Positions 1 through 12,072 of a stretch of DNA of 12,072 nucleotides are shown here, one piece after another. Origin of the DNA: Planctomycetia bacterium (GTDB taxonomy: Bacteria; Planctomycetota; UBA1135; GCA-002686595); the NCBI GenBank assembly GCA_005778045.1, contig SXKQ01000002.1, positions 1 to 12,072 of the forward strand, written 5' to 3'. Position 1 is the stretch's first letter. Each line of letters opens with the position of its first letter. Made by a program: the position numbers and the translations under genes. The notes beneath the pieces were generated by a model. The model did not search any database. It was not told the origin of the DNA and worked only from the letters and a program-made list of their open reading frames with translations.

Positions 1-1
1 C

Positions 2-475
2 AACGCCGGCATCACCCGCGACCAGCTGCTCCTGCGCATGAGCGAGGAGGACTTCGACGCGGTGATCCAGACCAACCTCAAGGGCACTTGGAACTTCATC
101 AAGGCGGCGACGCGCACGCTGATGAAGTGCTCGGGTCGGATCGTGAACATCGGCTCGGTGGTCGGCGTGACAGGCAACGCCGGTCAGGCCAACTACGCCG
201 CCAGCAAGGCCGGCGTGTTCGGCCTCACGCGCTCGGTCGCCAAGGAACTCGCTTCGCGCAAGGTTTGCTGCAACGCCATCGCGCCGGGCTACATCGACAC
301 CGACATGACCGCCGCCATCGACGCCAAGGCCAAGGAGGCCCTCATCGCGTCGATCCCGCTCGGTCGCACCGGCTCGCCCGAGGACATCGCGCTGCTCGTC
401 GACTACCTGTGCGGTCCTGGCGGCGCGTACATCACCGGCCAGACCTTCGTCGTCGACGGGGGCCTTTCGCTCTAG
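2..475 (+). CDS. fabG: 3-oxoacyl-ACP reductase FabG, C-terminal part (5' end outside window)
   Basis: NADPH-dependent reductase of the short-chain dehydrogenase family that reduces 3-oxoacyl-ACP to 3-hydroxyacyl-ACP in type II fatty-acid elongation. The reading frame is open from the first bases, which encode the NAGITRD motif that normally follows the cofactor-binding half, so the N-terminal Rossmann part with the TGxxxGxG motif is off the window. The structural Asn is in NLKG. The catalytic Ser is in NIGSVVG, and the Tyr and Lys are in YAASK; the Ser-Tyr spacing of 13 residues is that of FabG. The end (TGQTFVVDGGLSL) is the standard FabG C-terminus. It is followed at 103 bp by acpP and then fabF, the usual fab cluster order, which supports FabG over another SDR. 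The internal ATG at position 38 is not the true start. Confidence 0.95.
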   Translation, partial: NAGITRDQLLLRMSEEDFDAVIQTNLKGTWNFIKAATRTLMKCSGRIVNIGSVVGVTGNAGQANYAASKAGVFGLTRSVAKELASRKVCCNAIAPGYIDTDMTAAIDAKAKEALIASIPLGRTGSPEDIALLVDYLCGPGGAYITGQTFVVDGGLSL

Positions 476-578
476 CTTTCCAAAGGCGCAGGGAGGACCG
501 CCGGCGCGTCCGCGTCGGCGACCGAAGTCCGCCCCGTGCCTCGTCTAACGTCCAGGCAACGAAACGGAGATCACGAAC

Positions 579-824
579 GTGACCAGCAACACCACCGACA
601 TCCCGGAACGCGTCATCAAGGTCGTCTGCGAAAAGATGAGCAAGACGCCCGAGCAGGTCACGCGCGACTCCTCGTTCATCAACGACCTCGGGGCGGACTC
701 GCTCGACATCGTCGAGCTGGTGATGGAGCTCGAAGACGAGTTCGGCATCTCGATCCCGGATACGGACTCGGAGAAGATCCAGACCGTCGGCAACGCGATC
801 GATTACATCCAGTCCAAGTCCTGA
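579..824 (+). CDS. acpP: Acyl carrier protein
   Basis: Small acidic carrier (81 residues, normal ACP length) that holds growing acyl chains on a 4'-phosphopantetheine arm. The attachment serine is Ser41 in the motif [19 protein letters not shown], matching the DSL signature and the acidic helix II that docks on Fab enzymes. The start is GTG at 579, preceded by GGAG at 566-569 with a 9-base spacer; no ATG gives the right N-terminal length. It lies between fabG and fabF. The 148-base gap before fabF contains a small hairpin, which may help set the higher ACP expression usually needed. Family assignment is firm. Confidence 0.97.
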
Positions 825-843
825 GTCCCCGGGGGCGAGCCTG

Positions 844-862
844 TCGGCGGCGCGTTCGCCGA
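844..862 (+). terminator. Small hairpin between acpP and fabF
   Basis: TCGGCG (844-849) and CGCCGA (857-862) form a perfect 6-bp stem with a 7-base loop, 20 bases after the acpP stop. There is no T-run after it, so it is not a classical intrinsic terminator. It could stabilise the acpP end or partly attenuate transcription into fabF. The rest of the 825-972 gap shows nothing recognisable apart from the fabF ribosome-binding site (GGAG at 964-967). Confidence 0.3.
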
Positions 863-972
863 TCGGACCGCGCCTCGCGGAGGATCGTTCGGGCCGGCCG
901 TCGAGCGGGCAGGGTGCGTCCCCGGCCGAGCTTCGCCGCGCCCCTCAGGCAGCTCGTCATCTCGGAGTTCCC

Positions 973-2214
973 ATGCGCAGAGTGGTCATCACGGGTCTGG
1001 GCACCATCAACGCCCTTGGCAACGACCTGGCCACGTCATGGCCTCGGATCGTGGCCGGCGAGAACGGCATCGGTCCGATCACGCGCTTCGACACCAAGGA
1101 CCAGACCGTCAAGATCTCGGCCGAGGTCAAGCTCGACCCGCTGCTGCACTTTCAGGCTCCCGACCAGCGCAAGCTCGATCCCTTCACCATGTGGGCGCTC
1201 GTGGCGACGGACGAAGCCCTGCGCGACGCGGGTCTCGAGCCCGCGAAGGTGAGCGACGAGCTACGCGAGCGCTGGGGCTGCATCATCGGCACGGGCATCG
1301 GCGGCATCACGGGCATCGAGGAGCAGTACCGGGGCCTGTTGGAGAAGGGGCCGCGCCGCGTGAGCCCGCACTTTGTCCCGAAGATCATGGCGAATGCCGT
1401 ATCGGGGCAGGTGGCTATCAGGAATGGCCTGTTGGGGACGTGCTTCACGACCTCGAGTGCCTGCGCCTCGGCCGGTCACGCGATCGGCATGGCATGGCGC
1501 TCGATCCAGTGGGGCGAATCCGACATCGTCGTCACCGGCGGCGCCGAGAGCGCGACCACGCCGCTGTCGCTCGCGGGCTTCGCCAACATGAAGGCCCTCT
1601 CGCAGCGCGCCGATCCGGCTCTCGCCTGCCGCCCGTTTGACAAGGACCGCGACGGCGTCGTGATGGGTGAAGGCTGCGGCATCCTCGTGTTCGAGGAACT
1701 CGAGCACGCCCGCCGGCGTGGCGCGCGCATCTACGCCGAGGTCAAGGGCTACGGCTCGACCGATGACGCGTACCACATCACGGCGCCCGAGGAATCGGGG
1801 CGCGGTCCGGCGCGTGCCCTGCGGCAGGCGCTCGCGCACGCCAAGATCGATCCGACCGCGGTCGACTACATCAACGCGCACGGAACGAGCACGCCGTACA
1901 ACGACGCGATCGAGACGCGCGCCATCAAGCTCGTGTTTGGCGATCACGCCCGCAAGCTGGCGGTGTCGTCGACGAAGTCGATGGTCGGTCACCTGCTCGG
2001 TGCGTCGGCCGCGGTCGAGCTCGTCGTCAGCACGCTCACGATTCACCATGGCGTCGTGCACCCGACGCGCAACTACACGACTCCGGATCCCGAGTGCGAC
2101 CTCGACTACGTGCCCGGGGCCGCGCGCTCGATGAGAGTGCGCAACGTGCTCTCCAACTCGCTCGGCTTCGGCGGGCACAACGTCTCGATCTGCGTCGGCC
2201 AGCTCGAAGGCTAG
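973..2214 (+). CDS. fabF: 3-oxoacyl-ACP synthase II (beta-ketoacyl-ACP synthase, KAS II)
   Basis: Condensing enzyme of fatty-acid elongation: it takes an acyl chain from acyl-ACP onto a cysteine and condenses it with malonyl-ACP. The 413-residue length is that of FabF. The thiolase-fold catalytic set is intact: Cys164 in TTSSACASAGHA, His303 in NAHGTSTPYND, Lys335 and His340 in STKSMVGHLLGASAA. The N-terminus (RRVVITGLGTINALGND) and the C-terminal NSLGFGGHNVSI loop are standard. ATG at 973 is preceded by GGAG at 964-967. It is the third gene of the fabG-acpP-fabF run and is followed at 25 bases by a strong hairpin that probably ends the transcript. FabB or a polyketide KS is less likely given the neighbours. 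Confidence 0.97.
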   Translation: MRRVVITGLGTINALGNDLATSWPRIVAGENGIGPITRFDTKDQTVKISAEVKLDPLLHFQAPDQRKLDPFTMWALVATDEALRDAGLEPAKVSDELRERWGCIIGTGIGGITGIEEQYRGLLEKGPRRVSPHFVPKIMANAVSGQVAIRNGLLGTCFTTSSACASAGHAIGMAWRSIQWGESDIVVTGGAESATTPLSLAGFANMKALSQRADPALACRPFDKDRDGVVMGEGCGILVFEELEHARRRGARIYAEVKGYGSTDDAYHITAPEESGRGPARALRQALAHAKIDPTAVDYINAHGTSTPYNDAIETRAIKLVFGDHARKLAVSSTKSMVGHLLGASAAVELVVSTLTIHHGVVHPTRNYTTPDPECDLDYVPGAARSMRVRNVLSNSLGFGGHNVSICVGQLEG

Positions 2215-2238
2215 CCGCCTCGCTTCGACGCTCACCAA

Positions 2239-2272
2239 CGCCGCGCCGTGGCCATGGGCTCTCGGCGCGGCG
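2239..2272 (+). terminator. Probable intrinsic terminator after fabF
   Basis: CGCCGCGCCG (2239-2248) and CGGCGCGGCG (2263-2272) are perfect 10-bp complements around a 14-base loop, followed by CTTCT. The stem is very GC-rich and starts 25 bases after the fabF stop. The T-tract is short, so termination is likely but not certain. Confidence 0.6.
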
Positions 2273-2362
2273 CTTCTACGCAGTGGGACGGGCGTCCGTG
2301 CGCCGGCCGCGCTCCGAGGACCGCGGTGTCGGGCGCCGGGACGCACAAGGTTGGCCGCTCCC

Positions 2363-2821
2363 ATGAACCAGAAGTTCCAAGACCTGCTGCAGCGCTACGA
2401 GCTCCGGGCGTTTCATCGGGAACACGATCGGCAGAACGAGGACGAATTGTCGCGCCGGTGTCTGCACATCACCGAGGACGTCCCAGAGCGGAAGTACCAC
2501 CATCACTTCCAGAGGCTGCCGGATGCGGACCGCGCGGAGATCCTCAACATGGTCCAGAACTACGTCTGCGAGGCGATCCTGCCCCCGGTGGTGGAGAAGC
2601 TCATGGCGCGTCAGGTGCGCCTCGAGACGATGCAGCTGTTCCAGCGCGAGCTGCTCGATGTTCCGGGCCAGCCGGCCGCGCGCTGCGCGGGTAGTGTGGT
2701 CGTTTCGGCGGGCAGCTTTTTCCATCTCGTTCCTCGCCTTGATCGCGCACCGCGCATGCCCGCCGGGCTCGCCGACTCCACGTGGGGGGGCGTGATAGGA
2801 TCCCGGCATGAACGCCCGTGA
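2363..2821 (+). CDS. Hypothetical protein, 152 residues
   Basis: I do not recognise a family. The first ~105 residues look like a genuine soluble, mostly helical protein with charged amphipathic stretches (for example MNQKFQDLLQRYELRAFHRE and ADRAEILNMVQNYVCEAILP), a histidine cluster (KYHHHF) and no signal peptide or membrane segment. The last ~45 residues are low-complexity and less protein-like, and the frame runs 14 bases into the next gene. ATG at 2363 is chosen over an in-frame TTG at 2351; AAGG at 2347-2350 is a weak and rather distant ribosome-binding site. It follows the fabF terminator and may be the first gene of the cell-wall precursor operon downstream, but nothing shows a shared function. 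Confidence 0.6.
   Translation: MNQKFQDLLQRYELRAFHREHDRQNEDELSRRCLHITEDVPERKYHHHFQRLPDADRAEILNMVQNYVCEAILPPVVEKLMARQVRLETMQLFQRELLDVPGQPAARCAGSVVVSAGSFFHLVPRLDRAPRMPAGLADSTWGGVIGSRHERP
2796..2801 (+). promoter_or_regulatory. AGGA ribosome-binding site / possible extended -10 box (TGATAGGAT) before the pyrophosphorylase gene
   Basis: AGGA at 2797-2800 is a good Shine-Dalgarno core 7 bases before the ATG at 2808 and decides that start. The same bases sit in TG-A-TAGGAT (2793-2801), which fits an extended -10 box. If used, it would start transcription about at the ATG itself, giving a leaderless mRNA. No -35 box is visible. The two readings cannot both be dominant; the ribosome-binding reading is the simpler one. 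Confidence 0.4.
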
Positions 2822-4205
2822 GGACCGTGTTCGAGCGCGTGCTGTCGCAGCTGGGCAGGAGCACCTGTTCCGGCACTGGACGGCCCTGTCCGAGTCCTCT
2901 CGCGCATGCCTGCTCGGCGAGATCGAGAGCGTCGACTTCGACCTCGTGCAGCGCCACCGCGCGCTGGTGCGCGGCGATCTTCCCGCGGGCAAGCAGCCGG
3001 CCTTCGCTCCGGCCGAGGTGTTCCCGCTCGCGCGCAGCGCGTCCCACGAGGCGCGCGCGAGGGAGGCCCAGCAGCGCGGCATCGAGGCGCTCTCCCGCGG
3101 CCAAGTCGGCTACCTGCTGGTCGCCGGCGGCCAAGCCTCGCGTCTGGGCTACGAAGGCCCCAAGGGCGCTTACCGCATCGGACCGGTGAGCGACTGGTCG
3201 CTGTTCGAGATTCACGCGCGCCGGCTGCGCGCCGCCGCTGCGCGCTACGGCCATCCGGCGCCTTGGTACGTGATGACGTCGCGCGGCAACGACGCGCAGA
3301 CGCGCGAGTTCTTCGCCGAGCACGGCTATTTCGGTCTCGACGCGCGCGACGTGATGTTCTTCAGCCAGGCGATGGTCCCGGCGCTCGACTTCGAGGGCCA
3401 CATTCTGATGTCGGCCGAGGATCACCTCTTCCTCGCGCCCAATGGCCACGGGGGCTCGCTCGAGGCCTTTGCGCGTTCCGGGGCGCTCGATGACGCGAGA
3501 CGTCGCGGCCTGCGCCACCTCTCGTACTTTCAGGTCGACAACCCGCTCGCGCCGCCGGCGGATCCGTTGTTCCTCGGGCTGCACGCGCTCGAAGGCGCCT
3601 CGATGTCGAGCAAAGTGGTCGAGAAGCGCGATGCCGCGGAGAAGGTCGGCGTGATCGGTCGCGTCGACGGCAAGCTCTCGTGCATCGAGTACACCGACCT
3701 GCCCGCCGACCTGCGCGAGGCACGCGACGAGCAGGGCAAGCTGCGCTTTGGCGCCGGCAACATCGCCCTGCACGTGATCGACGTGGAGTTCATCGCGGAA
3801 CTCAACCGCGGCGGCCTCCAGCTCCCCTGGCACCTCGCGAAGAAGTCCATGGAGGTCTGGGAGGCGGGGCAAGTCGTCAAGAAGCAGGGCGTCAAGTTCG
3901 AGACGTTCGTGTTCGACGCGCTCGAGCGCTGCGAGCGCAGCGTGACCCTCGAAGTCGCCCGCCAGCGGGAGTTCAGCCCGGTTAAGAACAACGCCGGGGA
4001 AGACAGCCCGGCGACGACGCGGGCGGACCTGTGCCGCCTGCACGCCGAGTGGGTGCGCTCGGCCGACCTGCCGCTGCCGGAACCTGACGAGAGCGGGCTG
4101 CATCCTGTGGAAGTCGACCCGCTGCTCGCGGAAGATCTGGAGACGTTCGTCGCCCGCGGTCGCCATCGGCCGGAAGTTCGCGGGCGCGGACATCTCTACC
4201 GATGA
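2808..4205 (+). CDS. UDPGP-family UDP-sugar pyrophosphorylase (eukaryote-type UAP1-like, probably UDP-GlcNAc pyrophosphorylase)
   Basis: Nucleotidyltransferase that makes a UDP-sugar from UTP and a sugar 1-phosphate in the cytoplasm. At 465 residues it belongs to the UAP1/UDPGP family rather than the bacterial GlmU type: it has no left-handed beta-helix acetyltransferase half. Seen motifs: the nucleotide-binding loop LVAGGQASRLGYEGPKG (residues ~104-120, Arg112 and Lys119), QVDNPL (242-247, Asp244 for metal), SSKVVEK (~267-273), and FSPVKNN (389-395, Lys393), which matches the FSPLKN motif of UAP1 enzymes. This favours GlcNAc-1-P or a related amino sugar as substrate, although glucose-1-P or a broad specificity is possible. 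The stop overlaps the ddl start by 4 bases (ATGA), so the two are probably translated together, consistent with supply of UDP-GlcNAc for peptidoglycan. Confidence 0.9.
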   Translation: MNAREDRVRARAVAAGQEHLFRHWTALSESSRACLLGEIESVDFDLVQRHRALVRGDLPAGKQPAFAPAEVFPLARSASHEARAREAQQRGIEALSRGQVGYLLVAGGQASRLGYEGPKGAYRIGPVSDWSLFEIHARRLRAAAARYGHPAPWYVMTSRGNDAQTREFFAEHGYFGLDARDVMFFSQAMVPALDFEGHILMSAEDHLFLAPNGHGGSLEAFARSGALDDARRRGLRHLSYFQVDNPLAPPADPLFLGLHALEGASMSSKVVEKRDAAEKVGVIGRVDGKLSCIEYTDLPADLREARDEQGKLRFGAGNIALHVIDVEFIAELNRGGLQLPWHLAKKSMEVWEAGQVVKKQGVKFETFVFDALERCERSVTLEVARQREFSPVKNNAGEDSPATTRADLCRLHAEWVRSADLPLPEPDESGLHPVEVDPLLAEDLETFVARGRHRPEVRGRGHLYR

Positions 4206-5269
4206 GCGCACTCGCAGCCGCGAAGCAACAACGAGTCGAATCCCTGTGTGTCGCCGTGCTGTTCGGCGGACGCTCGAGCGAGCGCGAGGTTTCCTTGAGC
4301 AGCGGCAAGGGCATTGCGCGCGCGTTGCGCGGTGAGCTCGTGAGCGGGCGCGCGCTTCCGCGCGAGGTGCTCGAGGTCGAGATCGACTCCAGTGGCCGCT
4401 GGCGTGTGGACGGCGAGGCGCTGACGGCGGAGGTCGCGCTCGCGCGGCTCTCGCGCGTGGACGTGTTCTTTCTCGGGCTCCACGGAGGCGAGGGCGAGGA
4501 TGGCACGGTGCAGGGCCTGCTTGCGTCCTGCGGCCGTGTGCACACGGGTTCCGGCGTGCGCGCCTCGGCGCTGTGCATGGACAAGCTCGCGACGCGCGGC
4601 GTTGCCGAGTCGGTCGGGGTGCGCGTCGCCGCGGGCCTGTGCTTCGGTGTCGCCGACTGGCGTTCGGATCGGGCTGGCACGCTGGCGCGCATGGAAGCGC
4701 TCGGGAAGGACGGTTGGGTGATCAAGCCGCGCTTCGGCGGCTCGTCGATCGCTACGACCGTCACGCGCGAGCGCTCGGCGCTCGAGCCCGGGGTCGAGGC
4801 CGTGCTCGCCACGGGCGATGATGTGCTGGTCGAGGCACGCGTGCCCGGCGTCGAGACTTCGTGTGGCGTGCTCGGTGACCGTGGGGTGTTGCCGCACGCA
4901 CTCATGCCCATCGAGATTCGCCCCGCGAAGGGCGAGTGGTTCGACTACGACGAGAAGTACTCGAGGGATGGTGCTCACGAGCTCTGCCCGCCGCAGTCGG
5001 TGGGGGAGCGCAGCATCGCGCGCATTCGCTTGTCTGCAGCGCGCGTGTTCGCGCGCGCAGGCTGCGAAGGCTACGCGCGCATCGACTTCATCGTGCCGCG
5101 CGAGGGCAACGAGGAACAGGAACCCGTGATGCTCGAGGTGAACACTCTGCCGGGCTTCACCGAGCGCTCGCTGTTGCCGCAGGAGGCGGCCTACGAGGGG
5201 ATCGACTACACCGCGCTGTGCGTGCGCATCCTCGAATCGGCGTTGCGAAGCGCGGCGGTGGGGGCGTGA
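4202..5269 (+). CDS. ddl: D-alanine--D-alanine ligase
   Basis: ATP-grasp ligase that joins two D-alanines for the peptidoglycan stem peptide. At 355 residues it has normal length, with all landmarks: VLFGGRSSEREVS (N-terminal substrate site, Glu29), LGLHGGEGEDG (91-101), SGVRASALCMDK (117-128), the ATP-binding Lys in IKP (174-176) and the GGSS loop (179-182), the FDYDEKY segment (Tyr in the D-Ala site), RIDF (293-296), and the metal ligands Glu312 and Asn314 in EVNTLPG. The Tyr in EKYSRD argues for D-Ala rather than D-lactate specificity. ATG at 4202 overlaps the preceding stop as ATGA; the gene's own stop overlaps dapB as GTGA. Both overlaps suggest translational coupling in a cell-wall precursor operon. 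Confidence 0.96.
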   Translation: MSALAAAKQQRVESLCVAVLFGGRSSEREVSLSSGKGIARALRGELVSGRALPREVLEVEIDSSGRWRVDGEALTAEVALARLSRVDVFFLGLHGGEGEDGTVQGLLASCGRVHTGSGVRASALCMDKLATRGVAESVGVRVAAGLCFGVADWRSDRAGTLARMEALGKDGWVIKPRFGGSSIATTVTRERSALEPGVEAVLATGDDVLVEARVPGVETSCGVLGDRGVLPHALMPIEIRPAKGEWFDYDEKYSRDGAHELCPPQSVGERSIARIRLSAARVFARAGCEGYARIDFIVPREGNEEQEPVMLEVNTLPGFTERSLLPQEAAYEGIDYTALCVRILESALRSAAVGA

Positions 5270-6030
5270 CAGCGCTGCGCGTCGCGGTCCTCGGGGCCCG
5301 CGGGCGGCTCGGTTCTTTCGCGTGCGATCTGCTGCGGCGGACGGAAGGCTTCGAGCTCGTGGCGGCGTGGGATCGCGACAGCGACTGGCGTTCGCTCGCC
5401 CGCGACTCCGGCGCCGTCGTGGCGCTCGAAGCCACGCGGGCAGGTCAGGGCGCCCAGCATGCGCGAGTGCTGCTCGAGAGCGGGCTGCGAGTCGTGGTCG
5501 CGACCTCGGGCGTGGGAGTCGCCGACACCGAGGCCCTCGATCGGCGCGCGCGCGAGCTGGGCTTGGGTGGACTCGTCGTGCCGAACTTCAGTCTCGGTTC
5601 GTGGCTGCTGCAGCGCTTCGCCGCAGAGGCTGCGCTGTGGTTCGAAGGCGCGGAGATCGTCGAGTCGCACCACGAGCGCAAGGCCGACTCTCCCTCGGGC
5701 ACGGCTGGCGAGACGGCACGTCGCATGGCGGAAGAGCGCGCGCAGGGCGGGCTCGAGTCGTTCGCACCGGCCACGCCGCAGTTTCCTGCGCGCGGCGAGG
5801 TCCGGCACGGCATCCCCGTGCACTCGATCCGCTTGCCTGGGCTCTACGCCCACCAAGACGTGCTCTTCGGCGCGCGTGGCGAGGTGCTGCGAGTTTCCCA
5901 CGACATGCACGGGCCCGAGGCCTTCGGTCCGGGGATGCTGGCGGCCCTGCGCTACGCCGCGGCGGCGCACGGCGTCGCGCGCGGACTCGACCCGGCGCTC
6001 GCTCACACGCCGCGCACTCGCGGGAGCTGA
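5266..6030 (+). CDS. dapB: 4-hydroxy-tetrahydrodipicolinate reductase
   Basis: NAD(P)H-dependent reductase of the lysine/diaminopimelate pathway. The proposed product is 254 residues, slightly shorter than E. coli DapB (273). It has the Rossmann motif VLGARGRLG (residues 8-16), the ATSG cofactor loop (79-82), PNFSLG (106-111), the signature ESHHERKADSPSGT (133-146) with catalytic His135/His136 and Lys139, and the C-terminal LPGLYAHQDVLFG stretch equivalent to the domain that closes over substrate. The usual DFT motif after the second strand is replaced by ALEAT, a mild oddity. GTG at 5266 is chosen because it overlaps the ddl stop (GTGA) and gives the correct N-terminus; the frame stays open far upstream inside ddl but that is not coding. 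It supplies meso-diaminopimelate, so the cluster points to a peptidoglycan-making organism. Confidence 0.93.
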   Translation: MTALRVAVLGARGRLGSFACDLLRRTEGFELVAAWDRDSDWRSLARDSGAVVALEATRAGQGAQHARVLLESGLRVVVATSGVGVADTEALDRRARELGLGGLVVPNFSLGSWLLQRFAAEAALWFEGAEIVESHHERKADSPSGTAGETARRMAEERAQGGLESFAPATPQFPARGEVRHGIPVHSIRLPGLYAHQDVLFGARGEVLRVSHDMHGPEAFGPGMLAALRYAAAAHGVARGLDPALAHTPRTRGS

Positions 6031-6083
6031 CTGTGGACGAACCGCGACTTGAGCGTCATCCTTGGGCCTTCGAAGGAGCTCGG

Positions 6084-6167
6084 GCCGGGATGGCGGAACT
6101 GGCAGACGCGACGGATTCAAAATCCGTTTCCCTCACGGGAGTAAGGGTTCGATTCCCTTTCTCGGCA
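6084..6167 (+). tRNA. tRNA-Leu (anticodon CAA)
   Basis: The 84-base class II tRNA folds cleanly. The acceptor stem pairs GCCGGGA (6084-6090) with TCTCGGC (6160-6166), with one G-T pair. The anticodon stem is ACGGA/TCCGT (6111-6115/6123-6127) with a 7-base loop TTCAAAA, giving anticodon CAA at 6118-6120, which reads UUG. There is a long variable arm with a TCCC/GGGA stem, and the T arm is AAGGG-TTCGATT-CCCTT. The discriminator is A6167. The following bases are CCC, so the CCA end is not encoded and must be added after processing. It lies 53 bases after dapB and 29 bases before the next gene, so the downstream mRNA may be released by tRNA 3' processing. Confidence 0.97.
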
Positions 6168-6196
6168 CCCCTCTCCCTCTCGGGCGCGAGGCGCTC

Positions 6197-6811
6197 ATGA
6201 GCGCGTCCCGCTCGCGCAACCCGCGGCTCGCCGAAGCTTTGATCCCGGCGCTGGTGCATCGCATCAACAACACGACCCAGTTGCTCGTGTTGCTGCGCTT
6301 GGTGCTCGCCGAGCCCGATGACGGCGTGCTGACTTCGGCTGGGCCGAGCCTCGCGCACGCCTCGCGTGAGGCGGAGGAGCAGGGCTGGCTCCTCGGCTTG
6401 CTCGCGCGCTCGCTGGGCACGGACCTGCTGCTCGCCCGCGAGGAGCGCGACGGACTCGCTGCGACCCTGAAGCTGCTCGCGGAGGCCCTGCAGCGCCAGC
6501 GCAAGCAACTCGCCCTGCCCGAGCGCGTTCCGATGATGACGATGGCCGACGGCGGCCCGCGCTCCGCGGCGCTGTGCCTCGATCTGGCTGCGCTCGTCTG
6601 GGAGTCCTGCGAGGCGCTCGACGGGGCCTTCTCGCTCTCGCTAGCGCGCGAGGGCGAGCGCTGGGCCGTGCGGCTCTCGCGCGCCGACCTCACGCGCGCG
6701 CAAGCGGAGTTCTTGGCGTGCGAGTGCGCGACGCGCGGCGCGGAGCTCTTCGGCGACGGAGCCGGGTGGCGACTCGAGCTGCCGCTCGAGTGGCTGGCGG
6801 AGCGACGTTGA
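6197..6811 (+). CDS. Histidine-kinase-like protein (DHp-type helix pair with degenerate C-terminal domain), possible phosphotransferase
   Basis: A 204-residue soluble protein. Residues ~10-60 resemble the dimerisation/phosphoacceptor helices of histidine kinases: the segment LIPALVHRINNTTQLL has His21 followed by R-x-N-N, like the H-box HELNNPL. A second helix follows at ~50-75. The C-terminal half (~110-200) has alternating strands (FSLSLAREGERWAVRLS, GWRLELPLEW) that could be a reduced GHKL fold, but I see no N-box, no DxGxG and no GxGxG, so ATP binding is unlikely. This plan resembles ChpT/Spo0B-type histidine phosphotransferases; that role is an inference. ATG at 6197 has GAGG at 6188-6191. 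Its stop overlaps the next start by one base (TGATG), so both are probably co-translated. Confidence 0.65.
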   Translation: MSASRSRNPRLAEALIPALVHRINNTTQLLVLLRLVLAEPDDGVLTSAGPSLAHASREAEEQGWLLGLLARSLGTDLLLAREERDGLAATLKLLAEALQRQRKQLALPERVPMMTMADGGPRSAALCLDLAALVWESCEALDGAFSLSLAREGERWAVRLSRADLTRAQAEFLACECATRGAELFGDGAGWRLELPLEWLAERR

Positions 6812-7101
6812 TGGGAGTGCGCGAGTGGTTGGCACGCGCGCTCGGTACGGAGCACTCCGTTGAAGGCGATCCCACGCGCGTCGCTGCCGTGCAGGCGGTG
6901 CTCGCCGAGCTCGCGCCGCTGGTCGAGCTCGATGGCGGTCGGATCGAGCTCCTGCGCGTCGACGACGATGGCACCGTGCACGTTCGCATGCGGGGCGCGT
7001 GCGCGAGCTGCTCGCAGCAGGCGAGCACGCTGTCGCAGGCGCTCGAGCCGCGCTTGCGTGCGGCGCTGCCGTGGATGCGCGCCTTGAGCTCGGTCGAGTG
7101 A
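6811..7101 (+). CDS. NifU C-terminal-domain (Nfu-like) iron-sulfur scaffold protein
   Basis: A 96-residue protein made of one NifU-C domain, which in this family binds a 4Fe-4S cluster between protomers and passes it to client proteins. Seen: VQAVLAELAPLVELDGGRIELLRV (helix and first strands with the conserved DGG, 41-43), then MRGACASCSQQASTLSQAL with the cluster-binding Cys64 and Cys67 (CxxC), followed by the usual C-terminal helix. The length and the lack of the N-terminal IscU-like part fit standalone Nfu proteins. The start ATG shares its A with the TGA of the preceding gene, and GGAG at 6799-6802 is a good ribosome-binding site. No sulfur-mobilisation gene is nearby, so the client is unknown. 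Confidence 0.9.
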   Translation: MGVREWLARALGTEHSVEGDPTRVAAVQAVLAELAPLVELDGGRIELLRVDDDGTVHVRMRGACASCSQQASTLSQALEPRLRAALPWMRALSSVE

Positions 7102-7106
7102 ACGAG

Positions 7107-7142
7107 CGCGGGCCGCGCGACATATCGGTCGCACGGCCCGCG
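7107..7142. terminator. Bidirectional hairpin between convergent genes
   Basis: CGCGGGCCG (7107-7115) pairs perfectly with CGGCCCGCG (7134-7142); after a single C/A mismatch, GCGAC (7117-7121) pairs with GTCGC (7128-7132), leaving the 6-base loop ATATCG. That is 14 base pairs in a 36-base element, placed 5 bases after the stop of the NifU-like gene and 18 bases beyond the stop of the convergent minus-strand gene. No T-run flanks either side, so it may act as a T-less terminator or as an RNA 3'-end stabiliser for both transcripts. Confidence 0.65.
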
Positions 7143-7160
7143 GGGTGGACGCCCGGCGTC

Positions 7161-8465
7161 CTAGAACTGCTCGGCGTCGCTCGCCCCGATGAGCGTGCCA
7201 TTGGACCGCCCGACGAGGAACTGCCAGCCAAACTCGCCTTGCAGACTGCCGGGATTCCACAGGGTGAGCGTGGCCGCGCCTGTGGCGTCGGTCGGCAACA
7301 GGAACGGCATGCGCTCGATGGCCGGGAGCGCGAACGGCGTGTGCAGCAGAAACACGGGCAGCGCGTAGATCGTCTCCTGAGGCAGCATCGAAGATTGCGG
7401 GCAGTAGGTCAGCAACGCGCTGCCGTTCGGCACGCCGCCGCTGAGCGAGAACACGACCGGACCCGGGCCGACGAGCCCCGTGCCCGACAGCGCGAGATCC
7501 GGCCGCGCCGGTGAGAAGCGCACGAGGTCGTCGAGGGAGAAGAAGTCGGTGGTCGTATAGGCGATGCGCAGGCCGTCGTCGGGTTGGTACGCGTCGAAGG
7601 TGCCATCGCCAGGACGTTCGAAGCGCAGCGTGCTGATCCAGTTGTCCGCCACGAGCAGCTGCTGGCTCGAACCGCCGCCCGCGCGGATGCGCAGGATGCG
7701 GTAGCTGCTCGTGGTGAAGTTGTTCTCCGACAGGAGCAGGCGCTCGCGTCCAGGTTCGAACTCGAGCGCGCTCGTGCCCGCGAATCCAGTCGCGTAGACG
7801 ACCGCATTGCTCGCGGAGAGCTGTGTGCCCGAGGCGACGAGGCCGGCGCTCCAGCGCAGGAGGCTCTGGGGCGCGCTGGGCAGCGAGGAGTCCTGCTGGG
7901 TGCCGTAGAAGATGTCGCCGTTACGCGCGACCGCGACCGGGCCGGAGGGACCGTCGAGGTGGCCGAGGAACTGCAGCGCTCCCGAGGAGATGTTCACGCG
8001 GAACAGGTCCGTGCCGACCCCAAAGCCGTTGGGTGCGGCGGAGACGAGCAGCGAGCCATCGGGCAGGAACTCGCCGTCGTAGTTGTAGGCCAGCGCGGCG
8101 ACGAGGCCCGAGCCGGAGCCATCGAGCCACACGATGCGCAGGTCGCCGGCGGGGTTGGGCGAGAAGCCGCCGCTGTCGCCGATCACCACGGCGTCCTCGT
8201 CGGGCGTGAGGCGGATGAAGCTCGGGAACACGAAGCCCGCGAACGAGGCGAGCGTCGTCTCGAGCGATCCATCGCCGTTCCAGCGCTGGACGAGCTGGCC
8301 GTCGAACGTGACGTAGTCGCCGTCGGGCAGCGAGCACGAGACGCTCGAGGGAGCTGGGTTCACGCTGCTCGCCAGCGTGAATCCGGGCAGGGTGGAGTCG
8401 GCGCGTGCCGAGAGCAGGGGCAGCGTCGAAAGGAGCAAGGCAGAAACTAGGAGGCGTAAGGACAT
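7161..8465 (-). CDS. Secreted beta-propeller-like protein under cobalamin riboswitch control
   Basis: A 434-residue exported protein. The N-terminus MSLRLLVSALLLSTLPLLSA is a signal peptide with a likely cleavage site SARA|D after residue 22; there is no lipobox Cys. The mature part has repeated strand units of the kind F.PDGSLLVSA, ALEFEPGRERLLLSE, VARNGDIFYGT and TLRFE, each followed by a second strand with L-x-R or similar. This pattern is typical of NHL/SMP-30-type beta-propellers (about residues 35-320). The last ~110 residues form a separate beta-rich domain (from GLVGPGPVVFSLSGG to the end) of a kind I associate with secreted planctomycete proteins. Only two cysteines are obvious. The start at 8465 is set by the signal peptide; there is no Shine-Dalgarno. 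A B12 riboswitch lies 162 bases upstream on the same strand, and no other gene follows it, so B12 handling is the most likely role. The exact function is unknown. Confidence 0.75.
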   Translation of the reverse strand: MSLRLLVSALLLSTLPLLSARADSTLPGFTLASSVNPAPSSVSCSLPDGDYVTFDGQLVQRWNGDGSLETTLASFAGFVFPSFIRLTPDEDAVVIGDSGGFSPNPAGDLRIVWLDGSGSGLVAALAYNYDGEFLPDGSLLVSAAPNGFGVGTDLFRVNISSGALQFLGHLDGPSGPVAVARNGDIFYGTQQDSSLPSAPQSLLRWSAGLVASGTQLSASNAVVYATGFAGTSALEFEPGRERLLLSENNFTTSSYRILRIRAGGGSSQQLLVADNWISTLRFERPGDGTFDAYQPDDGLRIAYTTTDFFSLDDLVRFSPARPDLALSGTGLVGPGPVVFSLSGGVPNGSALLTYCPQSSMLPQETIYALPVFLLHTPFALPAIERMPFLLPTDATGAATLTLWNPGSLQGEFGWQFLVGRSNGTLIGASDAEQF

Positions 8466-8560
8466 GGGCGCGACTCGTCGATCGACCGTCGACAACACCG
8501 CCGTCGCACGTCGAATGGGGTGGTGCGGCAGCGGTCGGAACGCAAGACCGGGGCCGACGA

Positions 8561-8580
8561 GAGCGCGCACGACGGCGCTC
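8561..8580 (-). promoter_or_regulatory. Inverted repeat in the leader between aptamer and start codon
   Basis: GAGCGC (8561-8566) and GCGCTC (8575-8580) form a 6-bp stem with an 8-base loop in the minus-strand leader, 48 bases after the aptamer and 95 bases before the start codon. It is a candidate part of the riboswitch expression platform. No T-run follows, so a classical terminator is not supported. Confidence 0.3.
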
Positions 8581-8627
8581 CTCAACAGGCACCGGACCCA
8601 GCCTCGAGATCCGAGAGGTGCGGCGAT

Positions 8628-8846
8628 GCGTGATGGGTCTCCTGACTCGCCGTTGGCGCCCTCGAGCGGACCTTCCCGGGACTTGGCGTGAGCTCCCCGA
8701 AGAGAGTCACGCGGGTCCCAGTGGCCTGTCGGCCGCGAGCGACTCCCGGTGGGGGCAGTGCTCGCGCACCGGCACACGGGCTCGATGGCATGCGGCTCAC
8801 AGTGGCGGGACCGTGCTGGACTCACACCAGCTTCCCCCTTCCACGC
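8628..8846 (-). promoter_or_regulatory. Cobalamin (adenosylcobalamin-type) riboswitch aptamer
   Basis: Read on the minus strand, the conserved blocks of the cobalamin riboswitch appear in the right order and spacing. (1) GGGAAgctGGTGtGAGTCC (about 8837-8819) with its P-stem partner CCAGC, then GGTCCCGCCACTGTGA (8812-8797), the core that forms the L5 kissing loop. (2) GGCCACTGGGA (about 8727-8717) with TCCCGGGAAGG (about 8680-8670), separated by the stable hairpin GCGTGA...TCACGC. (3) GAGTCAGGAGACC (about 8648-8636), the B12 box with one change from AGCCAGGAGACC. GCGTG (8846-8842) and CACGC (8632-8628) can close the whole element. The ~219-base length is normal. In other bacteria this RNA binds cobalamin and lowers expression of the downstream gene. 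The controlled gene is the secreted propeller at 7161-8465. Confidence 0.93.
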
Positions 8847-8874
8847 TCGCGAGAACGAATTATCAGCTCGCGAG
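8846..8874 (-). promoter_or_regulatory. Paired CTCGCGAG palindromes around a GATAAT -10-like box, upstream of the riboswitch
   Basis: The 8-bp palindrome CTCGCGAG occurs at 8846-8853 and 8867-8874, 21 bp apart (two helical turns); both copies sit in the longer direct repeat GCTCGCGAGA. Between them on the minus strand is GATAAT (8864-8859), a -10-like box that would start transcription about 8852, just before the aptamer. A separate TTGACG (8901-8896) is a good -35 box but lies 31 bases from GATAAT; it pairs better by distance with a weak TTAGTC box at 8879-8874. The promoter of the riboswitch transcript therefore lies here, but which boxes are used is open. The repeats could be an operator or an RNA hairpin. 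Confidence 0.5.
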
Positions 8875-8928
8875 ACTAAGCGCCCGGTGGGAAGCCGTCA
8901 AGCCCGCGCGTCCGCGAGCGCGCGCGCC

Positions 8929-8934
8929 TACAAT
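8929..8934 (+). promoter_or_regulatory. TACAAT -10 box giving a near-leaderless transcript
   Basis: TACAAT matches the -10 consensus in 5 of 6 positions and lies 9 bases before the ATG at 8944, in an otherwise GC-rich stretch. Transcription would start about 8941, leaving a leader of only a few bases. The region upstream of the ATG has no Shine-Dalgarno sequence, which agrees with leaderless translation. No -35 box is visible at 16-18 bases. Confidence 0.55.
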
Positions 8935-8943
8935 CCGCTAACC

Positions 8944-10578
8944 ATGCGCCTCGAACCTGACGAAATCGAACAGGCGCTCGCTCTGCTCGAGCGAGCCGTG
9001 CTTGCGCAGCCCGGTCTCGCCGCCGAGTTCGAGGCGAGCCGACGCGAGTACTTCCTGCAGGGGGAGCCGCCGCCGAAGGATGAGGAGACGCCGCGCGCGT
9101 TGCGTCGCCTCCGCGAGTGGTTCCTTCTCGAGCGGCCGAGCAACGTGCTCGGCGGTGCGCCTGTCGAGTGGGTGCTGCACCGCCTCGACGGCATCGATGC
9201 GAAGGAACTCTCCGAGGATGCGCTGCGGGCGCTGCTCGCGTCGCGTTGCTCGGTCTATCAGGTCACGGGCGTGGCCGAGGGGGAAGGTGTTTGGGTACGC
9301 GACCTCGCGGCGATGGGCGAGTATCCGCTCAGCGAGCCCGAGGGCTCGCGTGCCCTGAGCGCGGACGATGTGCTCGTCGGCCGCCTCTTCGCGGTCGGCG
9401 AGTCGCTGTATCGCGTCTCGCCCGCGGCTGGCGTGTTCCGATCGAGCAAGCTCCTGCGCGCGCTGCTCGCGGACTTCGAGAGCCTGCGTCAGGCGCGGCG
9501 CGGCGTGCTGCGGCTCACGCAGGCGGAACTCGAGGGGATGTTCTGGCGTCGCATCGATCCCGTGCGCAGCGACGCCGTCGGCGCTGCGCGAGCGGCGTTG
9601 CTCGCCGGCGGCGTCGAATCGGCGCGCGTCGAGCAGATCTTCGTCGACTTGCGGCGCTCGCCGTTCGACGGGTCGCTCGTCGTGCCCGGTGTCGACGACG
9701 TACTCGCGAGCGTGCTCGAGTCGCTCGCGTTCGACACGCGCATGGACCTCGACATCGCGCGGCGGGTGCTGCTCGACGCGTGGGTCGAGCTCGCGGCCCC
9801 GACGGAGAGCGACGCCGCCGAGAGCGAGGAACGCAACGAACGCGCTCGGGACGCGCGCGCCGCGATCGAGGCCTTCGATGCGGGGCGACGCGCCGGCAAG
9901 GACCTTGAGACCTTGTTCCGCGAACTCGAGCGCGACCTCGAACTCGAGAGCGAGAGCTACGATCCCGACGCCAACGACGGCGCGCCGGCACCCGACTTCC
10001 CCGGCGTGGTGGGCGCGATGATCGAGGAGTTCCTGTGGGAGCTCGGTCGCACTCGCGGCGAGACCGAATCGGTGGAAGCCTCCGTGGTGCGGGCCTTCGG
10101 CGAGTTCGGCGCGGACTACGGCGTATTCGAGAACCTAACCGATCGCGAGCTCCTGCTGTTCGCCTCGGTCTGGCTGCCGGAGCGGCGCATTGTGAAGAGC
10201 GCGGAAGACTTGCGGCGCATGCTGCGCGCGCTGCGCGAGTTCTGCGCCTGGTCTCAGGAGAATCAGGACGTCGCACTGCTCGACGCCTACGAGAAGACGA
10301 TCCCGCCGATGGAGCGAGCGCTGGCGCGACTCGTCGAGGCGCAGCGCTGGTGTCGCAATGACGGTGGTCAGCCTTCGACGCTGTACGAGATCGCGTCGCT
10401 CGACGGTCCGCGCCCGACCGTCAGCGATGCGCGCGGCGATCGCTTCGAGGTCGACATCGAGCCACGGCTGGCCGCGGCCCTTGAGATCGGAGATCGACTG
10501 CGCGCGCGGCGCGTCGACGGTGGCCGGCTCGAAGTGTTCTGCTGCTATCCGTCCCAGAGCGCCTCGATCGCGCGCTAA
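8944..10578 (+). CDS. Unknown 544-residue cytoplasmic protein
   Basis: I do not recognise a family. There is no signal peptide or membrane segment. Residues 1-80 are helical (MRLEPDEIEQALALLERAV) and include FLLERPSNVLGGAPVEW. Residues ~85-170 contain a mixed alpha/beta stretch (SVYQVTGVAEGEGVWVRDL). Residues ~285-355 are an acidic, charged segment (ESDAAESEERNERARDAR, LERDLELESESYDPD) that may be a flexible linker. Residues ~360-470 are again helical. The last ~65 residues (from PSTLYEIASLDG to the end) look like a small beta-barrel-type domain with EVDIEP and RLEVFCCYP. ATG at 8944 is chosen over the upstream open frame because the extension overlaps the riboswitch on the other strand and a TACAAT box sits just before it. 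It is divergent from the B12-controlled gene and ends 14 bases from the convergent lipoprotein gene. Confidence 0.75.
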   Translation: MRLEPDEIEQALALLERAVLAQPGLAAEFEASRREYFLQGEPPPKDEETPRALRRLREWFLLERPSNVLGGAPVEWVLHRLDGIDAKELSEDALRALLASRCSVYQVTGVAEGEGVWVRDLAAMGEYPLSEPEGSRALSADDVLVGRLFAVGESLYRVSPAAGVFRSSKLLRALLADFESLRQARRGVLRLTQAELEGMFWRRIDPVRSDAVGAARAALLAGGVESARVEQIFVDLRRSPFDGSLVVPGVDDVLASVLESLAFDTRMDLDIARRVLLDAWVELAAPTESDAAESEERNERARDARAAIEAFDAGRRAGKDLETLFRELERDLELESESYDPDANDGAPAPDFPGVVGAMIEEFLWELGRTRGETESVEASVVRAFGEFGADYGVFENLTDRELLLFASVWLPERRIVKSAEDLRRMLRALREFCAWSQENQDVALLDAYEKTIPPMERALARLVEAQRWCRNDGGQPSTLYEIASLDGPRPTVSDARGDRFEVDIEPRLAAALEIGDRLRARRVDGGRLEVFCCYPSQSASIAR

Positions 10579-10592
10579 AGGACGGCGAGGCC

Positions 10593-11198
10593 TCAGCGAG
10601 CGGCCGTGGCCGGCACCTGCACCTCGGTGACGAGCTCCGAGAAGTCCTTCACCTCGCCGGGGTTGACGAGGTAGATCTCGCGGATCGGGCCGTTCTCGAC
10701 CCAGTCCATGCGCGCGAGGTAGGCGAACAGCGCGGGGTAGGAGCGCGGAACTTCGGGATACGGGCCCGCGACGAAGGCATAGGCGACCGTGGTGCTCTCA
10801 AGTACCCCGTAGCCGAGGTCGTCCTTGGTCTCGAGGGCCCCCGCGACCGGCAGACACGCGCGCAGGCGCAGCGAGTCGATCGCGACCTTGCCCGGATCGT
10901 CGTAGTAGAGCGCGAAGGGCGCTCCGGTCGGCTCGATGCCGGCGGCCGCGGCGAGCGCGAAGACTCGCTCGAGCGAGCGACCGACGTTGGTGTAGCTGCC
11001 GCGAGCCTCGACGAACACGTAGGGTTGATCGAGACGCTGCTTCCAGTCGACCTGCACGTCGCGGAACGGCGCGCGCGCGATGGGGAGGTCGGCGACGAAC
11101 GTGCTCGGGGCCTGACTTGGCGCGCCGGGGGCGCCCGTGGTGTTCGAAGATGCGCTGCAGGCCGCGAGCATGAGGAGCGGAAGGGAGCGGTGGAGCAT
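10593..11198 (-). CDS. Putative lipoprotein with GyrI-like small-molecule-binding domain
   Basis: A 201-residue protein with a short lipoprotein signal MLHRSLPLLMLAAC; Cys14 follows the lipobox LMLAAC and would be lipid-modified, placing the protein on the outer face of a membrane. A Ser/Pro/Ala/Gly-rich tether (15-35) leads to a GyrI-like (AraC effector-binding-type) domain from about residue 45 to 197. It has the two-fold repeated pattern: YVFVEARGSYTNVGRSLERVF then APFALYYDDPG in the first half, and AFVAGPYPEVPRSYPALFAYL then REIYLVNPGEVKDF in the second, ending in TEVQVPA as in this family. Known relatives are mostly cytoplasmic drug-sensor domains or gyrase inhibitors. ATG at 11198 is fixed by the signal peptide; no Shine-Dalgarno is seen before it. 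A haem-binding SOUL-like role is a less likely alternative. Confidence 0.8.
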   Translation of the reverse strand: MLHRSLPLLMLAACSASSNTTGAPGAPSQAPSTFVADLPIARAPFRDVQVDWKQRLDQPYVFVEARGSYTNVGRSLERVFALAAAAGIEPTGAPFALYYDDPGKVAIDSLRLRACLPVAGALETKDDLGYGVLESTTVAYAFVAGPYPEVPRSYPALFAYLARMDWVENGPIREIYLVNPGEVKDFSELVTEVQVPATAAR

Positions 11199-12072
11199 GG
11201 GATAGATTTCGTCGGGGAACGAGCTGTCCTTGAGGCGCTCGCAGGCCGGGCCTCTGGGCGTCACAGAAGTCGGGAATGGCGGCGTTGTGGGCCTCCGGCG
11301 CGGCGCACCCATCCCGCTGGCGTGGCCCCCCCGCCCGGCAGTCATAGGAAGTTGCAAATCGGACTTGGCACACTTGGGCCGCGAGGTGTGGGCCATCGCA
11401 GCGCGCCGCAGCGTGACACCGGGGGGGAACGCGACCGAAGGACGGCTCCGACGGCGGCGCCGTTCGCCCTCTCAGGTCTCGTCCAGCGCCGGCCGCGGGC
11501 CCGGTTGGGAACGGGGCCTACGGACGGTGCCCCTCGACGGGGTGCGCGACTGTCCGGGAAACGGCGGCGTCGGGGGCTGGCTCCAGCGCGGTGATCCGCC
11601 CGCAGGCTCTCTCGGTTCCTTCCGGTGGGTTCCTTGTGAGGTCGGCGAGCACGCGGCCCGCGAAGGTGCCTACTTCCGCGGCGGGTCGGCCTCGGCGCCG
11701 ATCCGGGGTCGTGGGACACGGAGGGGAGTGCCAACGATCCGGAGGCCTCGCGTTGGGGTTTCGACATGTCGACAGGGGCGATGTTGGCGCGGGCGCCAAC
11801 GGATGGCGGCGAGTGAGGCTGGAAGGTGGCAAGCGGCCGAGCTGCGGGAGCGCGCGCGGGAGGTACTTCGTGGCGGGATCGGCGAACGCCTGCGAGGCAG
11901 CGATGGCGCACAAAAGCCCGTCTCGGAGGCCCCCGTCGCGAAGGTCCTTGGCTTCTGATAATACTCGTTATGTTGCATTGAGGGCCACGGAAAGGGGCGG
12001 GGGACGGGCCGGACCGGACCGTCCTCTCGCCGCATTGACGGATGCACTCGGCTGAGGCACAACTCCGTGATG
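11199..12072. other. Region without a recognisable gene; several palindromes and an AT-rich island
   Basis: The open frames here on both strands are Arg/Ser/Gly/Pro-rich shadows of GC-rich DNA with no protein-like pattern. Structures seen: a 12-bp palindrome TCGACATGTCGA (11761-11772), an 18-base inverted repeat GTTGGCGC-GG-GCGCCAAC (11783-11800), a hairpin around CCCCTCGACGGGG (about 11530-11542), and a GGTTCCTT direct repeat (11614-11621 and 11628-11635). An AT-rich island (about 11955-11980, with TGATAATACT) is the best promoter-like spot. The minus-strand leader of the lipoprotein gene must begin inside the left end. The far right end may hold the start of another gene (ATG at 12070). No tRNA, rRNA, RNase P or SRP RNA could be recognised. 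Confidence 0.5.
11761..11800. repeat. Two adjacent palindromes
   Basis: TCGACATGTCGA (11761-11772, perfect, with TGTCGACA overlapping its end) is followed 10 bases later by the perfect inverted repeat GTTGGCGC-GG-GCGCCAAC (11783-11800). They lie in the stretch without genes. They could be protein-binding sites or, for the second, an RNA hairpin with a GTTGGC/GCCAAC stem. Confidence 0.5.

Follow-up and report, generated by a model that had tools for sequence, protein, structure and literature searches.

In excerpts of two papers, BtuG2 is described as a seven-bladed surface lipoprotein that carries a lipobox and a lipoprotein export signal (LES), caps BtuB and binds B12 on a negatively charged face; no BtuG2 homologues outside Bacteroidetes were found in that study (PMC6143338, PMC10404256). 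Excerpts of a further paper describe B12-binding members of DUF4465, one of them from Mucisphaera calidilacus (PMC13398666). Here, we describe P0001, a predicted secreted propeller protein encoded behind a cobalamin riboswitch on the planctomycete contig SXKQ01000002.1. The window is the 12,072-nt stretch at positions 1 to 12,072 of this contig, and coordinates refer to it unless a locus is named. The preliminary description of this DNA had proposed a cobalamin-capture system. A role of the propeller in cobamide acquisition is well supported by the phylum-wide linkage and by a btuCDF operon in three close relatives, and we infer that the propeller binds B12 directly. We propose that a B12-repressed exported propeller picks up cobamides outside the inner membrane for delivery to a BtuF-BtuCD importer, a reading to which we assign a probability of roughly 0.68.

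The riboswitch had been read from minus-strand sequence blocks, and the covariance model agreed with that assignment. RF00174 matched once in the window, at 56.5 bits against a cut-off of 31.5, so the earlier concern of a sub-threshold score falls away, and each of the quoted blocks occurs once on the minus strand (Table 1). The 5' end of the aptamer lies 33 nt beyond the interval first examined (7161-8846). In an alignment of the window with the 5' regions of four relatives, the core blocks were invariant or nearly so. For the block called the B12 box, the Rfam alignment chose CCACCGGGAG (CCACCGG) at the price of a 61-nt insert, and this motif was conserved only in the window and L003. Because CCACTGG is present in all five sequences and CCACCGG needs the insert, the comparison suggests that the GCCACTGGGA copy is the true B12 box. 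The hairpin GTCGACGGTCGATCGAC is a candidate part of the expression platform; its base pairs are unchanged among the five sequences and therefore provide no covariation evidence. The folding energy of the region as a whole was no better than that of shuffled sequences (z 0.63), and an intrinsic-terminator-like site was not found in 8400-9050.

The pairing of riboswitch and propeller is more than chance, because relatives retain it. RF00174 scored above gathering upstream of the gene in all three near relatives (L001, L002, and L003). A profile built without regard to riboswitches (A1) was searched against 392 planctomycete genomes and matched 55 of them; RF00174 was above gathering at 24 of the 30 A1 loci listed. 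Among the remaining six, L024 and L026 carry a sub-threshold aptamer of the cobalamin clan (RF01482; 45.2 and 34.8 bits, cut-off 50). At L031, L032, and L037, RF00174 heads an operon and lies about 3.1 kb upstream of the match; L038 belongs to a tandem pair of propeller genes that follow one aptamer, being the second of the pair. With a wider profile (A2), 85 of the 392 genomes gave a match at E<=0.001. The census comprised all 65 A2 matches with E<=1.5e-7, located in 57 genomes; it left out 28 genomes whose best A2 match was weaker than 1.5e-7, in which many matches extend over no more than the tail or roughly one blade. A match was counted as linked when RF00174 (E<=0.001) lay on the same strand at most 5 kb upstream, measured from the aptamer end to the profile-match start. 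As a result, 57 of the 65 matches (54 of 57 genomes) were linked, with about 0.05 expected by chance for 4.5-Mb genomes, so the earlier concern that homologues might never carry the riboswitch does not apply. Fifty-one of these lie within 600 nt of the aptamer (median of the linked matches, 173 nt), and 56 of the 80 RF00174 matches in the 57 genomes serve a family member. Twenty further riboswitch loci were hand-picked, rather than randomly sampled, from the high-scoring matches listed in genomes lacking a strong family match; the family profile had no match among their downstream proteins (up to four per locus; best E 0.078).

The neighboring genes point to B12 import. In G143, the operon runs from the aptamer through a FecCD permease (PF01032, E 2.1e-66), an ATP-binding cassette (ABC) ATPase recognized by eye from its motifs, and a Peripla_BP_2 protein (E 1.5e-13) to the propeller; G186 and G326 show the same order (riboswitch-btuC-btuD-btuF-propeller). 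For host profiles, we used a 40-genome sample, consisting of G001-G003 and the 37 best others from 57 genomes known to have an A1 match. RF00174 was present at E<=0.001 in all 40 and above cut-off in 38. In these genomes there are 18 additional RF00174 matches not assigned to a propeller. Eleven precede a btuF-like gene, eight assigned by Pfam and three (L007, where the match is cut by the contig end, L127, and L128) by tblastn at 49-62% identity; five (L081, L118, L119, L120, and L125) precede a second secreted family treated below, and the remaining two are L123 and the sub-threshold L126. In these genomes, the BtuF-BtuCD importer often has a cobalamin riboswitch of its own or shares the propeller operon. 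The metH gene was above cut-off in 36 of the 40 genomes, and cobI/cbiL in none (three sub-threshold); the cobI/cbiL profile was above cut-off in 4 of 14 control genomes. The propeller hosts look like B12-dependent consumers unable to build the corrin ring, which fits B12 scavenging. Linkage, importer operon, and host profile together support a place in the B12-acquisition pathway.

The protein itself is in keeping with the preliminary description, which had named an exported, propeller-like product without a lipobox. The AlphaFold model (predicted local distance difference test, pLDDT, 87.7) contains 24 strands, which we count as six blades of four strands each, over residues ~29-320, followed by a beta-sandwich. 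P0001 looks like a protein exported via a Sec signal peptide, judged by eye, and has no Cys within residues 1-30 that could serve a lipobox. A longer open frame (7161-8825) begins with GTG at 8825; this start is unlikely because it sits inside the riboswitch, and ATG 8465 is the likely one. The C-terminal domain folded on its own reached a pLDDT of only 67, and its model gave no PDB match at E<=0.001, so we limit the fold claim to a beta-sandwich. This tail is exchangeable, being a beta-sandwich in most relatives and dockerin-like in some (Dockerin_1 above cut-off in L094, below in L090), and the alignment shows that the propeller, not the tail, is common to all family members. P0001 matched no Pfam family at E<=10, and neither NCBIfam nor PDB sequence matches were found; PADLOC returned no result. 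Scoring in the protein searches was confined to the ~8,000 candidates with the most words in common, among which 22 database relatives were found. Four of them carry organism names, three being Planctomycetes/Planctomycetota and one labelled Chlamydiales. A second search with A2 added just two proteins. In the genome collection, the loci nearest to that of the window belong to Planctomycetota metagenome-assembled genomes (L003, 93% identical; L001, 76%; L002, 60%).

Under the proposed mechanism, the riboswitch would sense intracellular cobalamin and lower propeller expression when B12 is plentiful. At B12 shortage, the six-bladed propeller would be exported, as its by-eye export signal suggests, and would capture cobamides outside the inner membrane, in the periplasm or at the cell surface, before passing them to BtuF-BtuCD. 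Several observations weigh against this capture mechanism. The three importer operons are mutually 80-94% identical and therefore represent about one event, not three. Aptamer scores are modest in this clade (34.9 bits in L001), two of the 57 linked matches (G354 and G262) rely on sub-cut-off aptamers, and an aptamer in range is missing for eight of the 65 matches, namely G239:C610 (at a contig edge), G206:C3, G323:C251, G094, G056, two parts of one G158 frame, and G318. The propeller is not linked to any outer-membrane receptor, which leaves the route across the outer membrane unexplained. Three of 29 propeller domains are basic, so an acidic surface is not universal; this weakens the electrostatic argument that an acidic propeller would suit a cationic ligand, as in BtuG. 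Just a part of the conserved residues lies on one face. In addition, the fold neighbors of P0001 among the matches listed are mostly enzymes of the SMP-30/DFPase/strictosidine-synthase class, and positions 97, 237, and 247 are acidic in 90-93% of the 29 sequences, so catalysis is conceivable.

These enzymatic neighbors and acidic positions keep in play the main rival, in which the protein is a secreted enzyme of cobamide salvage with this fold. Such an SMP-30/DFPase-like hydrolase would remodel or release cobamides when B12 is short, for example by opening the nucleotide loop or freeing protein-bound corrinoid. The catalytic metal ligands of SMP-30-type enzymes are E/N/N/D. In the family, columns 97, 130, 237, and 247 are acidic in 86-93% of the 29 sequences but none is invariant, a comparison made by column. 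Only S174 and G175 are invariant, with no invariant Asp, Glu, Asn, or His, and together with the absent Pfam match this makes the enzyme unlikely. A surface or matrix protein, induced by B12 hunger for the use of B12-rich resources (attachment to cells, algae, or detritus) and not itself B12-binding, would agree with the exchangeable tail and with the pilin-like proteins seen behind the riboswitch at 10 of the 20 hand-picked loci; we consider it quite improbable, as the propeller gene sits directly behind btuF in the importer operon and the shared part is the propeller rather than the tail. The cobalamin riboswitch class also controls B12-independent isozymes, and the propeller could by analogy perform a B12-independent job in place of a B12-dependent one. 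However, an exported propeller is not a MetH isozyme, metH is kept by most of the sampled hosts, and the propeller shares an operon with the B12 importer, so that this replacement is very improbable. Capture by the exported propeller with hand-over to BtuF-BtuCD is our preferred reading.

The outer-membrane step was approached through receptor profiles. TonB receptors (PF00593) occur in 35 of the 40 propeller genomes; five have no match although all 40 carry RF00174. None lies near a propeller in these genomes, the nearest being 128 kb away on the five contigs with both, a result that is weaker on the many short contigs. At the 18 non-propeller aptamers, tblastn with eight planctomycete receptors found no TonB receptor (E<=1e-6). 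At 8 of the 20 hand-picked loci, a TonB receptor stands directly downstream of the aptamer; all eight match TonB-receptor models, with the BtuB model best for six, and their genomes served for comparison. The curated BtuB cut-off (TIGR01779) was reached in none of the 40 propeller and eight comparison genomes. Near-full-length BtuB-like matches (>110 bits and >490 positions, a limit chosen after viewing the list) were found in 4 of the 40 propeller genomes (G332, G323, G296, and G343; 118-152 bits) and in seven of the eight genomes picked for the riboswitch-receptor pairing (146-244 bits); the eighth, G133, gave 98 bits over part of the model. Since the genomes are drafts and the comparisons share phylogeny, the missing BtuB is only a lead. 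A broader proposal, which we regard as possible but doubtful, is that many Planctomycetota take up cobamides with no BtuB-type receptor. Their outer capture device would be the riboswitch-controlled propeller, with secreted partners and BtuFCD; it would have evolved independently as a counterpart of BtuG and be combined with another outer-membrane route.

In the open-access papers searched, we found no description of planctomycete B12 capture, no paper describing the propeller family, and none joining a cobalamin riboswitch with a beta-propeller or with Planctomycetes. The propeller is probably an undescribed part of vitamin capture by B12-dependent Planctomycetota. With this family, there is a concrete and expressible candidate for the missing protein of B12 capture, and a function comes within reach for proteins that have no Pfam or NCBIfam entry. 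If the proposal is true, different phyla recruited different propellers for one riboswitch-controlled job.

A second secreted family, without its own Pfam family, stands behind planctomycete cobalamin riboswitches and shows the signature SLGxGGSxTLGF...DGPGADFxVFEN, read by eye (Table 1). The members behind the five non-propeller aptamers are 39-49% identical to that of L118. For the L081 member there is a weak match to NF033170 (LIC_13355 lipoprotein), and the L106 member has additional PKD domains. This family is possibly another B12-capture protein. In G375 (L137), a by-eye member follows the propeller under one shared riboswitch; in G386, a member with its own aptamer is divergent beside two tandem propellers. 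G170, which has no A2 match, has an aptamer followed by pilin-like and second-family-like proteins (by eye) and a DUF4465 protein (E 4.7e-56). The genus Mucisphaera, source of a B12-binding DUF4465 protein, is planctomycete as well.

Other genes also occur behind cobalamin riboswitches. The ten hand-picked loci with a pilin-like protein are L103, L104, L107-L109, L111, L113, L114, L116, and L117; the L103 protein is DUF1559 by Pfam and the other nine were assigned by eye. At several of the ten loci, apparent cobalamin-related genes (by eye) come next. L118, in G343, encodes a second exported YncE-like propeller (by eye, no Pfam match), and L115, in G036, a 612-aa protein with an IPT/TIG domain and an apparent lipobox (by eye). 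The riboswitch-led Peripla_BP_2 protein of L122 has a weak N-terminal DUF4430 match (E 0.0031, below cut-off); DUF4430 is related to the transcobalamin beta domain. In the window, the propeller gene is the sole gene behind the riboswitch on its strand, as the preliminary description stated; this does not hold for some relatives, where it shares an operon with other genes. An opposite-strand tRNA lies downstream of the propeller gene here (tRNA-Leu) and at L001 and L003.

Table 1. Coordinates of the features in the window and at related loci.
Feature	Position	Strand	Basis
Cobalamin riboswitch aptamer (RF00174)	8879-8616	minus	cmscan 56.5 bits, gathering 31.5, E 4.4e-12, model 1-189 full length
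Core block GGGAAGCTGGTGTGAGTCC	8836-8818	minus	single copy
Core block GTCCCGCCACTGTGA	8811-8797	minus	single copy
B12-box block GCCACTGGGA	8725-8716	minus	single copy; CCACTGG in 5/5 aligned sequences
Core block TCCCGGGAAGG	8681-8671	minus	single copy
Core block GTCAGGAGACC	8646-8636	minus	single copy
Hairpin GTCGACGGTCGATCGAC	8477-8493	minus	11 nt upstream of start codon; identical in 4/5 sequences, one-base change in fifth
Secreted propeller protein P0001, 434 aa	7161-8465	minus	translation from ATG 8465; 22 homologues; alignments A1, A2
Putative Sec signal peptide, residues 1-22	8400-8465	minus	by eye; pLDDT <50 for residues 1-20
Predicted six-bladed beta-propeller domain, residues 24-320	7506-8396	minus	AlphaFold model
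C-terminal beta-sandwich tail, residues 323-434	7164-7499	minus	pLDDT blocks 92-97 in full model
tRNA-Leu	6084-6169	plus	
fabG-like, acpP, fabF, UDP-sugar pyrophosphorylase-like, D-Ala-D-Ala ligase, dapB-like genes	38-6030	plus	by eye
Second secreted family	L081:8854-9960	plus	
Second secreted family	L118:3226-4392	minus	
Second secreted family	L119:3287-4312	minus	
Second secreted family	L120:753-1781	plus	
Second secreted family	L125:138-1160	minus	
Second secreted family	L137:3883-4896	minus	by eye
Second secreted family	L116:1667-2572	plus	by eye
Second secreted family	L106:822-2621	plus	by eye
Peripla_BP_2 protein, riboswitch-led	L122:3148-4488	minus	
YncE-like propeller	L118:1960-3156	minus	by eye
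IPT/TIG-domain protein	L115:4265-6103	minus	

The comparison with BtuG, drawn in the preliminary description, holds for the setting and not for the family. Like BtuG, P0001 is a predicted exported beta-propeller of cobalamin-riboswitch loci with B12 import genes and has a proposed capture role. Unlike the seven-bladed BtuG, it has six predicted blades, no lipobox, no BtuB or other TonB receptor as neighbor, and no match to DUF5074 (PF16819; E<=10), which also found none of nine propeller relatives (E<=1). Membership in BtuG was rejected on the absent profile match, and P0001 fails every testable defining feature of BtuG. DUF5074 matched once in one of the 40 propeller genomes, on a contig without a riboswitch match (G343:C44). 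BtuG was absent among the 50 structural matches listed, which says nothing on fold distance. With DUF4465/BtuJ, as far as the excerpts describe them (PMC13398666), P0001 shares predicted secretion, riboswitch linkage, and a proposed part in B12 scavenging, and DUF4465 also stands behind a planctomycete aptamer; those proteins are beta-jelly-rolls, whereas P0001 does not match the DUF4465 profile, and membership was rejected on the Pfam result. SMP-30/gluconolactonase shares the predicted six-bladed fold. P0001 differs from it, and from DFPase and strictosidine synthase, by an identity of 7-16% in the matches listed, no Pfam match, a tail domain, and cobalamin-riboswitch control, and SMP-30 membership was likewise rejected by profile. 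BtuF (Peripla_BP_2) resembles the propeller in being an exported component of B12 uptake that these genomes place under cobalamin riboswitches; it belongs to a different family, and the propeller is an additional protein beside it.
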